From: Patescibacteria group bacterium
GTDB lineage: Bacteria; Patescibacteriota; Minisyncoccia; Phycocordibacterales; Phycocordibacteraceae
Direction: 5' to 3'
DNA length: 43,908 nucleotides
Assembly: GCA_029260935.1 (NCBI GenBank)
Contig: JAJDCJ010000017.1
Location: 1-43,908, forward strand
How positions within the stretch are numbered: position 1 is the first letter of the stretch; each line of letters opens with the position of its first letter. The position numbers were made by a program, and so were the translations under genes. Of this stretch, positions 1-40,674 are shown in pieces. The notes under the pieces are model-generated. The model was not told the DNA's origin. It worked only from the letters and a program-made list of their open reading frames with translations, and did no database searches.

Positions 1-506
1 CCGCCGGTAACCGCACCTTGCACATCCTCAGGTAAATTTAAAAGACGTAGAGAATTTGAAACATATACCCTGCTCTTTCCTACCTTTTTTGCAATTTGCG
101 TATTATTTAACTTAAACTCTTGCGCAAGTCGTGCAAAAGCATGCGCTCGGTCAATAGCATTTAAATCCTCTCTTTGAAGGTTTTCAATAATGGCAAGCTC
201 TAGTTTAATGCGGTCGTGCTCTTCATTTGAACGAATAGTAACAGGAATTTGAAGCAATCCTGCGAGCTTTGAGGCGCGCAGACGTCGCTCCCCTGCTATC
301 AATTCGTAGTATGTGGACATACCGCCGTTTTCGCGCACTTCCTCGTGCCTGGTTACTACCAATGGCTGCAATACACCATATTGCCTGATTGAGTCGGCTA
401 AACCACGCAAGCGCTCCTCATTAAATTCAGTACGAGGTTGATAGGGGTTAGGTTTAACCTTGTCTATCTCAACCCAAAAAATTGCATCGCCTTGGAAGTA
501 GGACAT
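1..506 (-). CDS. parB: ParB/Spo0J-like chromosome partitioning protein (partial, C-terminus outside window)
   Basis: Minus-strand translation MSYFQGDAIFWVEIDKVKPNPYQPRTEFNEERLRGLADSIRQYGVLQPLVVTR...YELIAGERRLRASKLAGL...ENLQREDLNAIDRAHAFARLAQEF: ParB N-terminal NPxQPR and GERR motifs. Confidence 0.93.
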   Translation of the reverse strand, partial: MSYFQGDAIFWVEIDKVKPNPYQPRTEFNEERLRGLADSIRQYGVLQPLVVTRHEEVRENGGMSTYYELIAGERRLRASKLAGLLQIPVTIRSNEEHDRIKLELAIIENLQREDLNAIDRAHAFARLAQEFKLNNTQIAKKVGKSRVYVSNSLRLLNLPEDVQGAVTG

Positions 507-584
507 GTAAAAAATTGTAACATAGACACGGGCAAAAATACGAAGTAGGATACATATTAATGCACAGTACCAACTGTCGCATGT

Positions 585-666
585 GCCGAAGTGGCGGAAT
601 TGGTAGACGCGCACGACTCAAAATCGTGTCCTTTCGGGGGTGTGGGTTCGATTCCCACCTTCGGCA
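585..666 (+). tRNA. tRNA-Leu(CAA)
   Basis: Acceptor GCCGAAG/CTTCGGC, anticodon loop CTCAAAA, long variable arm, T-arm GTGGGTTCGATTCCCAC. Confidence 0.95.
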
Positions 667-950
667 CAAAATAAACGAGCATAATGCGAAGCATTGTGTG
701 ACTATTATTTTGATGCAGGAGGTGGGAGTTGAAGAGAGGCTACTGCGAAGCCCGCGAGTATACGCGGTAGGAGCCGACGGGGTCGCGAACGCTTAGTATC
801 TTTGCGAGTCATACGATGCAAAGTACTTAGCAATGGCGACCGATGCGTGCCGAGCAGAGCGAGGACACTTCCCACCTTCGGCACAAAATAAACGAGCGCA
901 ATGCGAAGCATTGTGTGACTATTATTTTGATGCAGGAGGTGGGATGAGAA
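667..950 (+). repeat. tRNA-linked modular element downstream of tRNA-Leu(CAA)
   Basis: Inverted T-arm-like copy (GGAGGTGGGAGTTGAAG), AGTATA-loop hairpin, T-T mismatch hairpin 781-841, direct copy of tRNA 3' end (CCCACCTTCGGCACAAAATAAACGAGCG) near 870-900, then the post-tRNA spacer repeated. Confidence 0.85.
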
Positions 951-1004
951 GAACGGAAACGGAAATAAAAAATAACGTGATTAATCAGGTTATTTTTTAT
1001 TTAA

Positions 1005-1637
1005 TTACATAGACCCCGCTTTTTTGATACCGGGTTCTAATGTATCATCACCCTCCTCCCAATTTGCAGGGCATACCTGACCGCCGTGTGTACGTACAAA
1101 TTGTGCCGCTTTAAGTTTCCGAATCAGCTCATGTGTTGAACGACCAATAGCATTGTCATTAATTTCCATTGCCCGCAAAATACCATCAGGGTCAATGATA
1201 AATGTACCGCGCAGTGAAATACCCTCGTCTTCGGTGTAGTCAAGTGAACCACCCTCTACGTAGGTTCCAAACGCGATTGCCAGTCTCCCTGAAGGATCAG
1301 CCGCCATAGGAAAACGAATACCTTTTACCGCCTCTGATGTTTCCAACCATACCTTGTGTGCAAAAACAGTATCGCTTGAGACACTAATAACCTCAACGCC
1401 CATATCTTGAGTCTCCTCATAGTATTTTGAAAGTTCTTCCAGTTCAGTCGGACACACAAACGTAAAGTCAGAAGGATAAAAGAATAAGACAAGCCATGTA
1501 TCTTTATAATCAGAGAAACGTACGGTGTTTACCTTATCTTTGTGGTATGTGCGAAACTCAAAGTCTGGCACTGGATGCCCCACACGCACCATACTGACAA
1601 ATCCATTCACTTCCTCTTCGGGGATATCGTTTTTCAT
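1005..1637 (-). CDS. Peroxiredoxin (AhpC/TSA family, 2-Cys type)
   Basis: FFYPSDFTFVCPTELEELS and HGGQVCPANWEEGDDTL motifs. Confidence 0.95.
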   Translation of the reverse strand: MKNDIPEEEVNGFVSMVRVGHPVPDFEFRTYHKDKVNTVRFSDYKDTWLVLFFYPSDFTFVCPTELEELSKYYEETQDMGVEVISVSSDTVFAHKVWLETSEAVKGIRFPMAADPSGRLAIAFGTYVEGGSLDYTEDEGISLRGTFIIDPDGILRAMEINDNAIGRSTHELIRKLKAAQFVRTHGGQVCPANWEEGDDTLEPGIKKAGSM

Positions 1638-1687
1638 ATTATTTTGCTATTTATTTCGTATGCCCCTATAGTACCATTAGTTTAATT

Positions 1688-2581
1688 ATGGGTAATAAAA
1701 AAATAATCTGTATAGTTGGGCCGACCGCAGTTGGCAAAACTTCACTTTCAATCCACATAGCAAAAAAAATAAAAGGTGAAGTAATCTCTGCTGATTCACG
1801 GCAGGTTTATACTGGACTTGATATAGGAACAGGAAAAGTCACCTCCGAGGAGGCCCAAGGAATACCCCACCACCTTATTGATGTTGCTGATCCTCGCGCT
1901 GTATTCAGCGCGAGCGACTATGTAAAAAAAGGCACAGAAGCTATTGCCAATATTTACTCACGAGGGGCAGTACCACTTATTGTTGGGGGAACTGGTTTTT
2001 ACATTGATGCACTGTTGGGGAAAGTTGGACTTGCCGAAGTGCCACCCAACCCCGCGCTACGGGCGCGTCTTGAAAAAGAACCACTCGCAGAGTTGCAACG
2101 CACATTGCAAGAAAAAGACCCCGAGCGGTTTGAAACGATAGATACTCAAAACCCTCGCCGTTTGGTTCGTGCACTTGAAATAGTTGATGCTCTTGGCAAA
2201 ACCCCACCGCCGTTAAACACCAGCCCCTACGCAGTGCTGTGGATAGGGCTCCGACTTCCACAAGAAGCGCTGTATGAAAAAATACACCGCCGCCTCATTG
2301 AGCGTTTTGAAAACGAACAGATGCTTGACGAAGCACGCTCACTTCATGAAAAAGGTCTCTCCTATGAGCGTATGGAAGAGCTGGGACTTGAGTATCGCTT
2401 TATGGCACGCCACCTGCAGGGGCTTTTGTCGTATGCGGATATGGTTTTAGAACTTGAAAAAGAAATTATTGCCTATGCCAAACGGCAAATGACGTGGTTC
2501 AATAAAAACAAGGAGATTCAGTGGTTTACGCCTGATGAAAAGAAGAAAATAACTGAAACGGTAAAAAAATCCCTGATCTAA
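1688..2581 (+). CDS. miaA: tRNA dimethylallyltransferase
   Basis: IVGPTAVGKTSLSIHIA, GEVISADSRQVYTGLDIGTGKV, VGGTGFYIDALL, YAKRQMTWFNK. Confidence 0.97.
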   Translation: MGNKKIICIVGPTAVGKTSLSIHIAKKIKGEVISADSRQVYTGLDIGTGKVTSEEAQGIPHHLIDVADPRAVFSASDYVKKGTEAIANIYSRGAVPLIVGGTGFYIDALLGKVGLAEVPPNPALRARLEKEPLAELQRTLQEKDPERFETIDTQNPRRLVRALEIVDALGKTPPPLNTSPYAVLWIGLRLPQEALYEKIHRRLIERFENEQMLDEARSLHEKGLSYERMEELGLEYRFMARHLQGLLSYADMVLELEKEIIAYAKRQMTWFNKNKEIQWFTPDEKKKITETVKKSLI

Positions 2582-2599
2582 CAACCTACTATGATTAAT

Positions 2600-2850
2600 C
2601 ATAGTACCCTTCTATATTCTCTCTCCGGCAAAGCCGGGCCCGGCTCCGCCGTGGCGGTTCCCGCTAGTACCAAAAAACAGCACGCAGGTGCTGTTTTTCT
2701 GTCAGGCGGTTACCCGTCACTAAGTATTTTAGTTCGCTTCGCTTCTAAAATACTAAGTGCGCTCAACCCCATCTCGCGGTCGCAAAGCGACATCGCTACG
2801 ACCCTCGCCTGTACCAAAAAACAGCACGCAGGTGCTGTTTTTCTGTCAGG
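2600..2850 (-). repeat. tRNA-linked modular element downstream of tRNA-Trp
   Basis: About 40-bp direct repeat gtaccaaaaaacagcacgcaggtgctgtttttctgtcaggcg at about 2668 and 2812; inverted tRNA-3' copy; T-T/A-A mismatch hairpin 2708-2768. Confidence 0.85.
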
Positions 2851-2921
2851 CGAGCCCACATGGATTCGAACCATGATCGACGGTTTTGGAGACCGTTATT
2901 CTACCATTGAACTATAGGCCC
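2851..2921 (-). tRNA. tRNA-Trp(CCA)
   Basis: Cloverleaf on minus strand; anticodon loop CTCCAAA; T-arm CATGGTTCGAATCCATG; acceptor GGGCCTA/TGGGCTC. Confidence 0.93.
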
Positions 2922-3046
2922 GAGTGAGAAGGATAGCATCATGTAATCATGAATAGTATCTTCGAATGATGGGCCTACAAACTTGCTTTATAGGCCCAAT
3001 ACATACGAGTGTACTCTAATAAAAGCTCTTCGGAAAGAGCTTTTTG

Positions 3047-3205
3047 TTATTTCTTCATTTCTTTGAACACCACCCGCTTGCGTACTGTAGGGTCATACTT
3101 CTTAAGCTCCAGCTTCATATTAGCCAGTTTTTTCTTATTTTTCCGCGTCCACACAATATGGCTGGAAACCGCTGATTTAAGCTTTACTAGATTATCCTGT
3201 GACAT
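3047..3205 (-). CDS. rpmG: 50S ribosomal protein bL33
   Basis: Minus-strand translation MSQDNLVKLKSAVSSHIVWTRKNKKKLANMKLELKKYDPTVRKRVVFKEMKK (52 aa; not in the supplied ORF list). Confidence 0.88.
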   Translation of the reverse strand: MSQDNLVKLKSAVSSHIVWTRKNKKKLANMKLELKKYDPTVRKRVVFKEMKK

Positions 3206-3237
3206 GTTGGTTATCCTACCCTATTTACTGGAAAAAA

Positions 3238-4173
3238 TCAAAATGAGCAGGCCTGGACTACCGTAATATCCCAGTGACCCGACTCTCGCACATACGAGTT
3301 TCCACACACATCTTTATACTGAGGATTACCGCCACGTGATCCTGCACGAGTAAATTTGCCACTATTTTCTATAAAATCATCTAATGGACCGTTCCCTTGA
3401 AGATCAATTTTAAAACCTGCTTCATGTCCAGTGTCTCCCGCCTCATGCACCCCTCGCTCAGTTCCACCGTTTACCTGTATGTCGCACTCACTGCATGCCC
3501 TTTTTAAGTTAACAGTATTATCAACAACCGACTCTTGAATGTTTTTAAGCGAGGTACATCCTGTTCCAAAACAGTCTTCCTTCACACCATCTGCCCCTGA
3601 AGTACTGGTCACCGTAATACCTTCGTCCTCAAATGTGTCTAGGGCTGTTTGATGGTCAACCGCGCTCTCAAGTGAGGGTAATGGGACAGCGTCAGGATTA
3701 CCGGGCAAACTTGCATCAATTCCAGGTGGGCCAAATGGAGTGGTCTGGAAATTTCTTTCAACACACTCAATACTATTCCATGGGAGTTTGGTCTTATCAG
3801 TATCCAAAAATACATTCATAATCAAATTCACAATAAGCCATGCGCCTAAAATAAACACCAAGCCAAGGAACACGTTACCAAATATTTTGCGTGCAGTATT
3901 AATATTTTCCTGGTTGGCAGCCGCAGTAACATAGAGAAAACCTGCATACGTAAACATTAACGTGGCAACCATAATTGCCAGGTAAATGGCAAACCGTAAT
4001 ACGTTATCAAAAAGTGATACCAAATCACATGCACCTATGTTGCCCGGATGTTGCGCAACTTTCCGAGATAATTCCTCAGGAAATATTTGTCCGAAAAAAC
4101 TGTCGGCACCGAAACTCACAAGCGGTATTAAAAACAGCGCAAAAACGCCAACGAAAATCAGTCCCTTTTTCAT
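3238..4173 (-). CDS. Pilin-like (VirB2/TrbC-type) membrane domain fused to a C-terminal M15-like/Hedgehog-type peptidase-like domain
   Basis: Signal peptide MKKGLIFVGVFALFLIPLVSFGA, two TM helices, then GHEAGFKIDL...ESGHWDITV resembling M15 metal-site spacing; start set at internal Met of ORF 3238-4290. Confidence 0.6.
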   Translation of the reverse strand: MKKGLIFVGVFALFLIPLVSFGADSFFGQIFPEELSRKVAQHPGNIGACDLVSLFDNVLRFAIYLAIMVATLMFTYAGFLYVTAAANQENINTARKIFGNVFLGLVFILGAWLIVNLIMNVFLDTDKTKLPWNSIECVERNFQTTPFGPPGIDASLPGNPDAVPLPSLESAVDHQTALDTFEDEGITVTSTSGADGVKEDCFGTGCTSLKNIQESVVDNTVNLKRACSECDIQVNGGTERGVHEAGDTGHEAGFKIDLQGNGPLDDFIENSGKFTRAGSRGGNPQYKDVCGNSYVRESGHWDITVVQACSF

Positions 4174-4536
4174 ACCCTTCAGTATACAAGAAAAAACACA
4201 GTCCCTCGCCACTTTCCAGTTCAAACGTACCCCCTCTGAAAGAGACCCCTCTTTACGCTGGGAGGGTATGTCATCATCTACAGTTGCCAACGAGGCAAGT
4301 CAAACATTCGCCGCCCATCCACAAAACAGTATTTCTACAACCGCACACGTCTCTATGGTCACAGTGAAACTTCCCCTCGTACTGTTGTATTAACGCCTCT
4401 GACTTCATACGTGCAGTATATCCCACAATTGCTTTGGGTGGACGCATGAGTTTTTCCCAAAAGGTTGCAAGTAATTTTAAGTAGCCTAACTGTTAAAGTT
4501 GATGCGGGTAGGCGAGATATAGTTTTTATTGAAGAA

Positions 4537-5103
4537 CTAGGTATGTAAAATATGAAAGGGTCGTATGACATCAGTATCAAATTTCTCAGCTGCCTCAAGG
4601 GCTATTTTAATTCTATCTTCCGCCTTTTGGCCCTCTGAGGCATACAAAGCTCCTAGCGCAATCTGGTCACCACACCCTATGGCCGTATAGTTACCCGCTC
4701 TTTCTTCTATCTGATAGTCATTGTATACAGTAAACACTTTCCCTAACAAACCAACAATGAAACTTCCTTCAAAAACCTGTTTATCTCCCTTTCCCTCCCA
4801 ACCATTTTTACTCAAACAGACGCCGAGAGCGGAAATAAATTGTGTCACAAAAAATTCCATTAAGTCCCCATCTTTCTTTTTTATTTCTGGCAAATCAAGT
4901 TGGTAGCGTACTAACTGCGCCGTGCGATAACTTCCAGAGAAACCAAAAACCCACTTAACACCCTGTGTGTCTGTGCGCATAAAAACCTTTGGGTCTGCTC
5001 GTTCTGTTAGCTGTGTTGACGACGTTGCGGCAGAATCTCCACCTATCCAAACGGTGTCATTTTCCGTTAAGGCAACAATACAGGTTGATGTTTTTGGGTT
5101 CAT
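4537..5103 (-). CDS. HslV/proteasome-like Ntn-hydrolase family protein
   Basis: TCIVALTENDTVWIGGDSAATSS resembles TTIVxVxxxGxVxIxGDxxAT of HslV/beta-type proteasome subunits; AIGCGDQIALGALYA. Confidence 0.6.
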   Translation of the reverse strand: MNPKTSTCIVALTENDTVWIGGDSAATSSTQLTERADPKVFMRTDTQGVKWVFGFSGSYRTAQLVRYQLDLPEIKKKDGDLMEFFVTQFISALGVCLSKNGWEGKGDKQVFEGSFIVGLLGKVFTVYNDYQIEERAGNYTAIGCGDQIALGALYASEGQKAEDRIKIALEAAEKFDTDVIRPFHILHT

Positions 5104-5249: not shown

Positions 5250-5568
5250 GTCTTTTATGTGGTCACAGATAATTTCCTCGTCGTCACTCGGAAATTTCCG
5301 CGACCCTGTCTCACTTGTTTTTTCTGCTGAAAAAACATAGCTCCGACTCGCACAAGTGCATCACAAAGCAAAGCAGTTTGCTTTGCTTGCCTTGTGCGCC
5401 GGGCAGGATTTTTCCCTTACAGGGACTGTATGGGTTTCGTATTCACTTCGCTATCGCTTGTTCATATACTCAACCGCTTTCAAATCCTGCCCGAAAGGTA
5501 TGCAGATACCTTTCTCCGGTGATGCACTGAACAAAAAAACCCGCCGGAAGGCGGGATTGTTTGTTCAG
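5250..5568 (-). repeat. tRNA-linked modular element downstream of tRNA-Tyr
   Basis: Inverted tRNA-3' copy interrupted by hairpin (5479-5526), direct copy cgccgggcaggattt near 5398, GGTC..GACC hairpin 5261-5305, CTGC-loop hairpins. Confidence 0.8.
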
Positions 5569-13166: not shown

Positions 13167-13620
13167 CAAAAAAATACGACAGTATTTTCTTTGGGCGCGG
13201 AGCACGTAAACTGCTTTACGTGCGGCGGGAATCGAAAGCCGCAGCCATATCGCTTTGCGATGGCGAGGCCGGGTAGGAGCCACTTAGGATGTTACGACTA
13301 GGGGGAGTAACATCCTTAGTGAGCTGACGCCGATTCCCGCCGTGGCCTCACGACAAAAAACGACACCTGCGTGTCGTTTTGCTGTACGTGAGGCAGCCGG
13401 AAGCATATTTCTTTTTCACTGTATTCATGGTGAAAAAGAAAAGCTGAGGCGGGGCCGAGCGCACTTAGTGTTTTAGAAGCGAAGCGAACTAAAACACTTA
13501 GTGACGAGTGGCCTCAAAATAAACGGTATCTGTGACCGATGCGTGCCGAGCAGAGCGAGGACACTTCCCGCTATATTAAATGGCCTCCAATTTAAACGGT
13601 ATCTGTGTTATTTTAGTAAC
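13167..13620 (+). repeat. tRNA-linked modular element downstream of tRNA-Cys (two units)
   Basis: Inverted copy GGCGGGAATCGAA at 13224-13236; direct copy GATTCCCGCCGTGGCCTCA near 13331-13350; two T-T mismatch hairpins (13278-13325, 13453-13513); tggcctc copies near 13510 and 13578. Confidence 0.87.
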
Positions 13621-13623
13621 GAT

Positions 13624-13705
13624 GCCGGGGTGATGGAATGGTAGACATAGGGGACTTAAAATCCCCGGGCCCTAGGCCGTGTGGGTTCGAGTCCCACTCC
13701 CGGCA
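13624..13705 (+). tRNA. tRNA-Leu(UAA)
   Basis: Acceptor GCCGGGG/CTCCCGGC region, anticodon stem-loop GGGGACTTAAAATCCCC, long variable arm. Confidence 0.95.
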
Positions 13706-14173
13706 CAAAATAAACGAGCGCGATGCGGAGCATTGCGTGACTATTATTTTTGGCCACGGCGGGAATCGAAGAGAGGCTACTGCGAAGCCCGCGAGCATAC
13801 GCGGTAGGAGCCGACGGGGTCGAGGGTACTTACTATTTTATGAGCAACGCGAAGTAAAATAGTTAGTACCGGTGACCGACCCCCACTCCCGGCACAAAAA
13901 ACTGGATGCGCATGCATCCAGTTTTTTATTTTGTGTGTAGGCCGGAGAACTCCCAACCACTCGCTTCGCTTATGTGCTGGGGAGAGGCTCGGTCACGAGT
14001 CACTAAATATTTTATTCCTCCGCGTCATAAAATACTAAGTGCTCGCGACCCCGACTCAGCGACAAGCACTCGTCGTACCTCCTCGTCTTGTATACCGCCT
14101 CCGTCTTTCGAGTCCTCTCCCAGCAGTAAAATAATAAAACTGAATGCATGCGCATCCAGTTTTTTATTTTATG
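13706..14173. repeat. Two converging tRNA-linked modular elements (tRNA-Leu(UAA) + strand; tRNA-Leu(UAG) - strand)
   Basis: T-T mismatch hairpins 13818-13877 and 13991-14050; direct copies CCCACTCCCGGCACAAAA and CCTCTCCCCAGCACATAA; inverted copies GGCCACGGCGGGAATCGAA and CTGCTGGGAGAGGACTCGAA. Confidence 0.85.
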
Positions 14174-14254
14174 TGCTGGGGAGAGGACTCGAACCTCCAC
14201 GCCCGAAGGCACCTGCTCCTAAGGCAGGCGTGTCTACCATTTCACCACCCCAGC
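14174..14254 (-). tRNA. tRNA-Leu(UAG)
   Basis: Anticodon stem-loop CTGCCTTAGGAGCAG, class II variable arm, acceptor GCTGGGG/CCCCAGC. Confidence 0.95.
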
Positions 14255-14409
14255 AATGTGCATACTGTAGCAAATTATTTTAAATTTGTCGTCAGTTATT
14301 TTTCTATATATGTTCCCATAGAACAACATTGTAATCCCATCAACCTACTATGATTAATCATAGTAGGTACTTCTTTTTGTCGCCTTAAATGTTAAGAAAT
14401 TAGGATAAC

Positions 14410-15064
14410 CATATGGGGGCAAACAAGTGGCTAAGCAAAGCATTTTGCTTGCATGTCGTCACGAATAATTATTCGTCAGCCGCTCGCAATTTCCACGCGA
14501 CCAATTTCTCTTATGAGTCAGACGAATTAGAGAAATGGAAGTACTCCTGTGGTGACCCCAGCTCGCCCGGCTCTGCCGGGCTGCGCCTCGGACATGTACA
14601 AAAAAACAGCACGCAGGTCGTCTTGTCGCCACCAGTCACTAAGTAGAATGTTTCGCTACGCTCACATTCTACTAAGTGCTGTCGGCCCCGCTTCGCCCGG
14701 CCCCGCCGGGCGCCTCGGACATGTACAAAAAAACAGCACGCAGGGCAGGTCTTTGTGTACTTGTCGTCACAAGTTGCTAAGTATTTTAGAGCGCTTCGCT
14801 TCTAAAATACTAAGCACTCGCGACCCCAGCTCGCCCGGCCCCGCCGGGCTGCGCCTCGGACATGTACGCGAAAACGCCAAGTGGTTTATGTTTCGGTCAC
14901 CACCGGTTTCTAAGTATTTTAGAGCATTTCATTTCTAAAATACTAAGAACCTTTGGTCTGGGCTCGGCTTTTCTTTTTCACCTTGAACTCAAGTGAAAAA
15001 GAAATAGAGCCTGCGCCTCGGACATGTACGCGAAAACGCCAAGCAGTTGGCGTTTTCTGTCATG
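14410..15064 (-). repeat. Array of four tRNA-linked modular units downstream of tRNA-Lys
   Basis: CGGACATGTAC at 14589, 14716, 14857 and 15019; T-T/A-A mismatch hairpins 14628-14687, 14766-14824, 14899-14957; repeated cgcccggc..gccgggc hairpins. Confidence 0.87.
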
Positions 15065-15137
15065 TCCGCCCTCTAGGACTTGAACCTAGGACCATCTCCT
15101 TAAGAGGGAGCTGCTCTACCAACTGAGCTAAGGGCGG
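15065..15137 (-). tRNA. tRNA-Lys(CUU)
   Basis: Acceptor CCGCCCT/AGGGCGG, anticodon loop CTCTTAA, T-arm CTAGGTTCAAGTCCTAG. Confidence 0.93.
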
Positions 15138-37127: not shown

Positions 37128-37312
37128 GCACGCATCGGTCACCTTTGCTAAATATTTTGTTTCGCATACTTACAAAATATCAAGCGACGCGACCCCGTCG
37201 GCTACTACTGTGTATACTCACAGGCTTCGCAGTATCCTTTCTTCGATTCCCCGTAGTGTCTACAAGAACGTAAAAACCCCAATACTTTCGTATTGAGGTT
37301 AACGTCTTGTGA
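37128..37312 (-). repeat. Left copy of about 185-bp direct repeat (tRNA-Glu-linked element without adjacent tRNA)
   Basis: Nearly identical to 40487-40674; ends at gtcttgtga before diverging. Confidence 0.88.
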
Positions 37313-37790
37313 TGAAATCATAACCTTTGCTCGAACTTACTTCCAATCGCGAAGCGATTGATCTGCAACGCGCCGAGCGCGTGGTGACTCTAAACTTAAT
37401 CTTACGCATTGGAGTTTGATGTGACGCGCCACACGCCTCGCTCCACTCGGCGTCCAAAAACCAAAACTATTTCCTTCCTTCTTCTTTTCCTGCGGTGGGT
37501 TTTTTGAAAAATGAAAAGCAAAAAGAATGGTGTTGCGAGGTTCCGCCGGAGCGAAGCGGAGGCGGTTAGGTGTCGTAAAAAGTTCGCGCAAAGGTTAGAA
37601 TATCCTCACAAAAAGAAACTTCGTCCAAAGAAAGGGCGGAACACGCGCTTGCCTGTGGCAAGCGCGTGTGCGTTTTGTCGCGCATCCGCGCGGCGTATTG
37701 GGACGGGACGGGGACGGAAAACTGCATGGATTTACACCTTGCTTCGTATCCACCACAGTCGCTTTTTTGTTAGAATAGAATGAAGCGACT

Positions 37791-39317
37791 ATGGCAAACC
37801 AAAAATGTTTTCTCTACGCACGCAAATCAACGGAACCTGACGACAAGCAGGTGATGTCCATTCCTGCGCAGTTGGTGGAATTGCGAGAATTTGCGCGTAA
37901 AGAAAATCTTGAAATCCTTTCGGAGTTTCAAGAGTCGAAAAGCGCAAAGACTCCAGGGCGTGAACAGTTTGCAGAAATGATAACGCGCATTGAAGCTGGA
38001 GAAGCAAGCGGGATTTTAGCATGGCACCCTGACCGCTTGGCGAGAAATAGTATCGATGGTGGGCGCGTCATTTATGCAGTTGATACACAAAAGGTTACGT
38101 CTTTACGCTTTCCGACATTTTGGTTTGAACCCACTCCGCAGGGACTCTTTATGTTACAAGTGGCGTTCGGACAATCTAAATATTATTCAGACAGCCTAAC
38201 GCAAAATGTGAAGCGAGGAATGCGAGCAAAATTACGCCGTGGCGAGTGGCTAACGCGCGCTCCTTTCGGGTATGTAAATAATCCTAAAACTCGTAACATT
38301 GAACCACATCCCGTGCATAGCAAAATTATCGTGCGCGCTTTTAAGGAGTATGCAAAAGGTACGCATGGACTCGTATCGCTTTCACATTTTTTGCATGAAC
38401 ATGGAGTTAGTACCAAGAAAGGTACGCCACTTGGCAAAGCTTCCATCAAACGACTTTTAACGAACCGTGCATACCTAGGATTTACAAAACATTATGACGA
38501 ATGGTTTGAAGGAAGCTTTGCGCCAATTATAACTCCCAAATTGTTTGAAGCCGTCCAAAAGGTTCTCGCAAGCAAAGCAAGACCTCGGAGAATGAAAGCA
38601 AAACATGACTTTCCATTTACCAATCTTTTTCGTTGCGGAGAGTGCGGGAGTATGTTCACCGCACAATGGGCTACAGGAAAGTGCGGAGGAAAGTATAGAT
38701 ACTATCGGTGTACGAAAAAGAAAGGAAAATGTGCTCAAGGATATTTGCGCGAGGAAGCTCTTGTCGCAGAAATAAAGGAACGGTTCCAAACAATTTCACT
38801 TTGCGATGAGGATACAGATTATATGCTCAAACGTGTTGAGGAGTTTGAGCAAGGGGAAAATCACTCATCGCAAAGTCGTGTTCAAAATCTTTCTTCCAAA
38901 CTCAAAGCAAGCGAGGAGAAACTGGACAAGCTCGTCTCGGTTTATCTTGATGGTGATATTCCAAAGTCAGTGTACATCAAGAAAAAAGACGAGCTTATGA
39001 GAGAATCGCTTGCTTTGAAAGAAAAGCGGAAAGATTTTGAGCACTTGGGAAATAATTGGGTCGAACCCCTGCGGGAATGGATTTTAGATACGAAACAAGC
39101 CAATTTTTTGAGCTCATCCGCAGATTTCCACGAAATCAGCTCCTTCGTCAAAAAGGTTGGAACGAACCCTACGGTTCGTGACAAATCCGCGCGCTTCGGC
39201 GCGCCAGTTCCGTCTGAATTCGTCGCGGAGCGACGCGCATTGGGAAAAGTTCTAAATTGTGACCCTAACGATACGGAACTCAAAACCCATAGTCCAGCAT
39301 CTCCAGGAAGTGGCTAG
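37791..39317 (+). CDS. Large serine recombinase (resolvase N-domain, recombinase domain, zinc beta-ribbon, coiled coil)
   Basis: YARKSTEPDDKQVMSIPAQLVELREFARKENLEI, GILAWHPDRLARNSIDGGRVIYA, FRCGECGSMFTAQ...YYRCTKKKGKCAQGYLREEALV. Confidence 0.95.
   Translation: MANQKCFLYARKSTEPDDKQVMSIPAQLVELREFARKENLEILSEFQESKSAKTPGREQFAEMITRIEAGEASGILAWHPDRLARNSIDGGRVIYAVDTQKVTSLRFPTFWFEPTPQGLFMLQVAFGQSKYYSDSLTQNVKRGMRAKLRRGEWLTRAPFGYVNNPKTRNIEPHPVHSKIIVRAFKEYAKGTHGLVSLSHFLHEHGVSTKKGTPLGKASIKRLLTNRAYLGFTKHYDEWFEGSFAPIITPKLFEAVQKVLASKARPRRMKAKHDFPFTNLFRCGECGSMFTAQWATGKCGGKYRYYRCTKKKGKCAQGYLREEALVAEIKERFQTISLCDEDTDYMLKRVEEFEQGENHSSQSRVQNLSSKLKASEEKLDKLVSVYLDGDIPKSVYIKKKDELMRESLALKEKRKDFEHLGNNWVEPLREWILDTKQANFLSSSADFHEISSFVKKVGTNPTVRDKSARFGAPVPSEFVAERRALGKVLNCDPNDTELKTHSPASPGSG
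39259..39302 (+). repeat. Left copy of about 44-bp direct repeat bracketing the TauE/SafE gene
   Basis: gtgaccctaacgatacggaactcaaaacccatagtccagcatct. Confidence 0.88.
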
Positions 39318-40326: not shown

Positions 40327-40486
40327 TAGTGGAGATATGGGGATAAGGAGATATGGGGATAAGTACGATATTTTTTGCATATTTGTGTCATAATATTTTC
40401 CGTGGCCTCCCCGGTCCTCGCAGGGAGGAAATGGGGTCAAGACCCATTTATTGTGACCCTATGGGGAAGTGTCTTTGCTTACGCTC

Positions 40487-40674
40487 GCACGCATCGGTCA
40501 CCTTTGCTAAGTATTTTGTTCGTCCTATAGACTCAAAAATACTAAGCGACGCGACCCCGTCGGCTACTACTGTGTATACTCACATGCTTTGCAGTAGCCT
40601 CTTTTCGATTCCCCGTAGGGTCTACAAGAACGTAAAAACCCCAATACTTTCGTATTGAGGTTAACGTCTTGTGA
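40487..40674 (-). repeat. tRNA-linked modular element downstream of tRNA-Glu (right copy of direct repeat)
   Basis: T-T/A-A mismatch hairpin 40496-40556; AGTATA-loop hairpin; inverted tRNA-3' copy cgattccccgtagggtc; direct copy tgtgaccctatgggg near 40452. Confidence 0.87.

Follow-up and report, generated by a model that had tools for sequence, protein, structure and literature searches.

Among the described systems closest to the locus reported here, the extrahelical bases of the integron attC site are known to matter for recognition by IntI (PMC3053210), and a family 2 casposon inserts at the 3' end of tRNA-Pro with a duplication of 14 to 15 bp (PMC6614799). In the window analyzed in this study, which is the whole stretch of 43,908 nucleotides from a Patescibacteria group bacterium, four consecutive units form the 3' flank of tRNA-Lys(ctt) on the minus strand, and the tRNA-proximal end of the array is thus its high-coordinate end. 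We consider it probable that short, non-autonomous mobile elements have piled up in this array, inserting at the 3' ends of tRNA and tmRNA genes by way of a folded strand and an enzyme provided in trans.

The repeat analysis confirmed the original prediction of a four-unit array behind tRNA-Lys. Within positions 14410 to 15064, a 45-nt repeat family has four copies starting at 14581, 14708, 14849, and 15011, with spacings of 127, 141, and 162 nt, and a second family of 81 nt has three copies. Read along the minus strand, the units consist of a terminator-like hairpin, CATGTCCG, which is the inverse of the tRNA-Lys tail CGGACATG, GGCG(CA), a P2 hairpin, P3, and then GTGAC or GGC (Table 1). A mismatch hairpin had been expected in every unit, and P3 takes this form, CTTAG-N-CTTAG, in three of the four units, while unit 4 has a composite P3. 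The proximal three units matched the covariance model of the module with E values of 1e-10 to 1e-14; two of these three scored units are in the training set of the model or close to it, and many independent copies were matched elsewhere. Identity between the neighboring units 2 and 3 is 72%, in comparison to a mean of 50% and a maximum of 56% for shuffled copies. Unit 1 has no close counterpart behind other tRNAs of the genome, unlike units 2, 3, and 4, whose counterparts at tRNA-Ile(tat), tRNA-Lys(ttt), and tRNA-Ile(tat), respectively, indicate that copying between loci also shapes the array; as judged from these identities, units are also copied between tRNAs with a common 3' end. The distal units had been thought to be more decayed, and this was not borne out: P3 pairing is intact in units 1 to 3, so that no gradient of decay is seen along the array, and unit 4, with its composite structure, is a module of another kind.

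Table 1. Coordinates of the array anchor, modules, and tRNA 3'-end copies in the window.
Feature	Position	Strand	Evidence and remarks
tRNA-Lys(ctt), array anchor	15064..15137	-	ARAGORN and Rfam
Terminator-like hairpin and inverted arm CATGTCCG adjoining tRNA-Lys	15019..15063	-	Sequence
Lys unit 1 module (P2 and P3)	14899..15021	-	Covariance model, 74.6 bits
Lys unit 2 module	14766..14859	-	71.7 bits; 91% identity to unit at tRNA-Ile(tat), same genome
Lys unit 3 module	14628..14724	-	59.8 bits; 77% identity to unit at tRNA-Lys(ttt), same genome
Lys unit 4, P2 as in the others, composite P3	about 14458-14589	-	Sequence; 86% identity to tRNA-Ile(tat) unit; under model threshold
Distal short repeat GACATG (tRNA-Lys end GAC plus ATG)	14452..14457	-	Sequence
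Module behind tRNA-Leu(tag)	13991..14109	-	90.2 bits; arm 14107-14121 and tRNA 3' half form a near-perfect palindrome (inverted repeat I6)
Module behind tRNA-Leu(taa)	13769..13877	+	82.7 bits; inverted arm (13745-13760 region, GGCCACGGCGGGAATC) is the tRNA-Cys arm, by arm test
tRNA-Leu(taa) 3' end, 18 nt, copy 1	13689..13706	+	tRNA call and repeat scan
tRNA-Leu(taa) 3' end, copy 2, 2 mismatches	13878..13895	+	Repeat scan
tRNA-Cys module 1	13234..13331	+	80.0 bits
tRNA-Cys 3' end, exact 18-nt copy	13332..13349	+	Repeat scan
tRNA-Cys module 2 (variant site)	13392..13513	+	92.1 bits
Module behind tRNA-Leu(caa)	732..841	+	66.6 bits; tRNA copy 867-884, 2 mismatches
Module behind tRNA-Trp	2708..2806	-	84.0 bits
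tRNA-Tyr 3' end, exact 18-nt copy, closing a unit of another class (..CCTGTAAGGGAA)	5394..5411	-	
tRNA-Tyr module 2 (variant site)	5261..5351	-	52.9 bits
Module behind tRNA-Glu(ttc)	40496..40605	-	62.6 bits; tRNA copy near 40453-40470, 3 mismatches
Orphan module without adjoining tRNA	37137..37243	-	74.2 bits; preceded by tRNA-Glu(ttc) spacer

The architecture of the Lys array was also observed in the window behind the tRNAs Leu(caa), Trp, Tyr, Cys, Leu(taa), Leu(tag), and Glu, and in part behind tRNA-Ser. In the general plan, the tRNA is followed by a terminator, an inverted copy of the 3' half of its T-arm ending in GAA, the module (GAAAGNCGGAG-P2-GAGNCGGGGTC-P3-GTGACC), and a direct copy of the tRNA 3' end, which starts in the T-loop and comprises tRNA positions 57 to 74, exactly 18 bp. 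The units are ORF-less and mostly 130 to 240 nt long, and unit classes with other cores, ending in CTCCTGTAAGGAGA, GAGAGGC, or GACGCC, are found at the same 57-74 site. The Lys array, the second Tyr unit, the second Cys unit, Trp, and several relatives make use of a variant site, which lies at the very 3' terminus of the tRNA. The arm at this site mirrors the terminator together with the final bases of the tRNA, and the repeat is a short one, reading GACATG in the Lys array and CACAAAA in locus L048. No empty counterpart of this site, including that of the Lys array, was found.

Several smaller features were noted at these loci. Behind Leu(caa) (about 842-884), Glu(ttc) (about 40453-40496), and Glu(ctc) at locus L013, the direct tRNA copy is interrupted between its GA and its TTCC by a smaller, nested hairpin (TGCGTGC..GACACT). 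A dispersed perfect palindrome, ACCTACTATGATTAATCATAGTAGGT, with GTAG/CTAC ends, is located at 14343-14368 of the window, in locus L011, near tRNA-Trp, and once inside a coding sequence; it looks like the REP of RAYT-type Y1 transposases, of which this genome has eight. By eye, a small GIY-YIG-like ORF was seen inside a unit bounded by tRNA 3'-end copies at tRNA-Trp of genome G009 (L078 570-1140), which hints at gene-bearing forms of the elements, and another such ORF is located directly behind tRNA-Ser(tga) of G006 (L114).

We compared the 3' ends of tRNA genes within and between genomes. An exact copy of tRNA positions 57 to 74 was found downstream in 43 of 214 distinct tRNA loci, which are not a random sample because part of them were chosen for holding a module, in comparison to none upstream and 2 of 2113 for mismatched pairs. 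The boundaries of the repeat are near-constant at both ends (32 repeats with at most one mismatch), and a recognizable right-hand repeat is missing in about half of the modules. For the close species G004 and G009, empty and filled sites were identified at tRNA-Gln(ttg), Gly(gcc), and Pro(cgg), and the 18-bp repeat is perfect in all three cases. The filled site exceeds the empty one by a block of terminator, inverted T-arm arm, GAA, and module, placed between two tRNA 3'-end copies; the tRNA is intact at the filled sites, and the inserted 130 to 170 nt have no precursor at the empty sites. These results showed that filled and empty tRNA ends differ by a unit with an 18-bp repeat. At Gln, a third species has, by eye, an empty-type flank, which suggests that the filled state there is probably derived from the empty one; part of the empty sites could be precise deletions across the direct repeat, Gln alone having third-species support for insertion.

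Whole units thus differ in number between close species at orthologous tRNAs, and the position of the differing units was as predicted if the proximal unit is the newest. At tRNA-Glu(ctc), the extra unit of G009 sits between the tRNA and a unit whose start is common to G004, and at tRNA-Lys(ttt) the two species differ in their proximal units and have the distal unit in common. With the lineage-specific unit proximal and the shared, older one distal, the sequences of these two loci support growth at the tRNA-proximal end. The proposal of serial accretion at a tRNA 3' end is therefore upheld in general, with the amendment that inter-locus copying also shapes the Lys array.

The inverted arm fits its own tRNA, with 1.86 mismatches in 10 in comparison to 4.22 with shuffled tRNAs (minimum 3.6 in 2000), and the excess of matches is limited to positions 57 to 65, which correspond to the T-loop and to the T-stem in its 3' strand. 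In some insertions flanked by perfect repeats, the arm is a better fit to another tRNA. The clearest foreign arm is that at Leu(taa), where 16 nt of tRNA-Cys are flanked by tRNA-Leu repeats (2 mismatches), indicating that elements move between tRNAs, and a foreign arm together with a target-type repeat indicates that the arm travels with the element while the repeat comes from the target. It is possible that the Cys arm reached Leu(taa) by local recombination, the tRNA-Cys array being its neighbor, but mobility between tRNAs is strongly supported.

The same observations make unlikely an integration of the Campbell type, in which small circles with a block of tRNA 3'-end identity would recombine at the T-loop, a host Xer or phage integrase acting in trans, and the 18 bp would be an element-borne attL/attR identity rather than a duplication of the target. 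tRNAs that differ in their 3' ends are followed by related modules, and the repeats at each of them are those of the local tRNA, where a foreign circle would leave a chimeric tRNA; the Leu(taa) element has a Cys arm but Leu repeats; and the sequence to the left of the crossover varies by class (GACC, GGAGA, GAGGC, GACGCC). Such circles would nevertheless account for several features, since islands that integrate at tRNAs are usually recognized by direct repeats of tRNA 3' ends, a block running from the crossover point to the tRNA end would explain positions 57 to 74, both Pro tRNAs of G004, which have identical 3' ends, carry related elements, and nearly every genome has a XerD-like recombinase.

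In single-sequence folds, two hairpins (P2 and P3) are common to most modules, and an alignment of 14 modules, from which the covariance model R1 was built, has compensatory changes in P3. In 68 modules from many species, P3 was paired at 96%, in comparison to 31% to 47% for structures slid by one to three columns, with 252 double-change cells, none of 500 shuffles as good, and both-side changes at 19 of 21 pairs; the alignment was fitted to R1, which favors the structure somewhat, but such a fit would hardly yield changes on both sides at so many pairs. P3 thus covaries strongly. Its irregular features are conserved as well: 48 sequences have the T.T mismatch, and of the 68 modules, 62 have the unpaired A and 61 the G.T wobble. 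In the Rfam scan only tRNA reached the gathering score, and a permissive scan gave only chance-level matches.

The distribution of the modules was then considered for this genome, which was read outside the window through fetched flanks around tRNAs, and for its relatives. Most tRNA genes of this genome (35 found) have such units at their 3' side, and 33 matches to R1 were obtained at a looser threshold. Modules were identified by R1 in 63 of 100 related genomes, covering 33 of 43 genera of Paceibacteria, and 37 of the 100 have none. In nearly all fetched loci, the module follows the 3' end of a same-strand tRNA at a distance of up to about 250 nt, and in one it follows a tmRNA; loci L030 and L046 have a module without a callable tRNA. 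In a search of 85,488 species genomes with a 24-nt consensus pattern, 17 stretches were matched, titled Patescibacteria or Paceibacteria (with names such as Kaiser-, Yonath-, Lloyd-, and Campbellbacteria) except one titled just "uncultured bacterium," and a tRNA adjoins the module in 16 of the 17. Among viral contigs, a single strict 24-nt consensus pattern gave no hit. Targets also include the tmRNA gene, whose 3' end is followed by two modules in locus L036 (871-1738).

The strong covariation, the fixed orientation downstream of tRNAs, and the pairing of the arm with the tRNA copy would also be compatible with a functional trailer, in which case tRNA transcripts would contain a selectively maintained RNA structure, serving as a terminator, a processing signal, or a storage signal and including the tRNA-end copies in its fold. 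We regard this as very improbable, as close species differ in the presence and number of modules at the same tRNA, the 37 relatives mentioned above have none by R1, each module is preceded by a terminator, and several unrelated classes occupy the same site. Least credible is an origin without any insertion enzyme, through tandem duplication or template switching at palindromes in which the tRNA end is copied to and fro when replication errs at a tRNA terminator, since the near-perfect palindromes (e.g., 14107-14193), the hairpins nested inside arms, and the units common to tRNAs with similar 3' ends that speak for it are opposed by the lack of a precursor of the inserted block at empty sites, one module family across many families of an order, and repeat boundaries constant at 57 and 74.

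For mobile elements inserting at tRNA ends, a mechanism may be outlined as follows. The active form of the element would be a single strand that has folded: the arm would pair with the downstream tRNA copy over about 9 bp (P1), and P2 and P3 would complete a three-way junction. The irregular P3 features, i.e., the T.T mismatch, the extrahelical A, and the G.T wobble, may mark strand and site, and a recombinase supplied in trans would perform the insertion. After a jump to another tRNA, the arm could become matched to its new host by copying or by selection, the putative routes being template switching in the quasi-palindrome or selection for P1 pairing. As a tentative possibility, we further propose a structure-guided insertion system in Paceibacteria, in which ORF-less DNA elements recognized as a folded three-way junction, a tRNA-complementary arm that finds tRNA T-loops genome-wide, a fixed 18-bp duplication, tRNA-anchored arrays, arm re-matching, and some host enzyme, perhaps a repurposed one, are combined.

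None of the enzyme candidates tested accounts for the distribution of the modules. The tyrosine recombinase is a single copy in most genomes, whether module-rich or module-free; that of this genome, located at C16:43186, is XerD-like over its full length, with IntI4 matching the C-terminal part alone, and most module-rich genomes have no copy beyond Xer, so that a dedicated tyrosine integrase was rejected as a required driver. Also rejected as required drivers were the Y1/RAYT transposases, given six genomes (G019, G059, G069, G080, G090, and G097) with 6 to 11 modules and no Y1 match; reverse transcriptase, which 21 of 28 module-rich genomes lack (G000, G004, G006, and G009 among them); and Cas1, with none in this genome and absence from 27 of 28 module-rich genomes. 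No modules were seen by regular expression in the RAYT loci fetched. As to a GIY-YIG nuclease beyond UvrC, G086, with 16 modules, has only one GIY-YIG match, which at most weakly disfavors this nuclease as a required driver.

Serine recombinase elements were found adjoining orphan modules. Large serine recombinase genes with a repeated junction-like sequence, GGTTAGAATGTCAGCAC|AGATTGAAACTTC, are located at 37600-39317 of the window, where the recombinase itself spans 37791-39317, and at 112-4700 of locus L147 (G000:C16:52300-57500). In L147, the serine-recombinase element, with an ABC transporter operon, lies between tRNA-Gly(tcc) and its module, at CAC/A; the orphan module at C16:57047 is 4.6 kb from this tRNA and ends in an exact 18-nt copy of it, and a serine-recombinase element at the same left boundary appears to explain the orphan. 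In the window, a TauE gene and a serine recombinase lie within the 3.4 kb between tRNA-Glu(ttc) and the orphan module, which, with the spacer of that tRNA, is located at 37137-37330.

No published description of these elements was found in the literature searched, a search whose reach ended short of subscription papers and preprints. If the reading is true, most tRNA genes of some streamlined, uncultured bacteria are occupied by one family of mobile elements, which would have escaped recognition so far for lack of both genes of its own and a model in the databases. Its natural insertion polymorphisms with exact boundaries would make the integrating enzyme, the role of the matched arm, and the tolerance of essential tRNAs to repeated insertion directly testable.

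The likeness to cassette arrays and to leader-proximal acquisition that had been suggested for the Lys array holds for the geometry, but not for membership in either system. As in integron cassette arrays, growth takes place next to a fixed anchor (seen at Glu(ctc) and Lys(ttt) in G004 and G009), and the site resembles attC in that its stems vary and its extrahelical bases are conserved in a strand presumed here to act in folded form; unlike integrons, an integron-type integrase was not found, cassette genes are absent, the anchor is a tRNA gene, and an 18-bp direct repeat matches the anchor. CRISPR arrays and casposons share the anchor-proximal insertion and a duplicated anchor repeat of fixed length, here 18 bp, for which duplication and carried identity are not fully separated, but they differ in the use of Cas1, absent as stated above, and in that the insert described here is folded and conserved and has no sequence-defined terminal inverted repeats. 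REP/BIME sequences with RAYT (Y1) are likewise short, ORF-less palindromic repeats in many copies, and RAYT-like genes are present in this genome, whereas several module-rich genomes are without Y1, the modules have an 18-bp repeat and target tRNAs, and none was seen in the fetched RAYT loci. The tRNA-targeting genomic islands and MITE-like non-autonomous elements have direct repeats of tRNA 3' ends and small forms without an enzyme gene in common with the modules, which are set apart by their size of mostly 130 to 240 nt, tRNA-matched inverted arm, covarying fold, and several unrelated classes per site. Each of the integron, CRISPR/casposon, REP/RAYT, retroelement, integrase island, and Rfam families fails a tested defining feature, and, if the reading is right, the arrays at tRNA genes would be another independent case of anchor-adjacent array growth, beside integrons and CRISPR.
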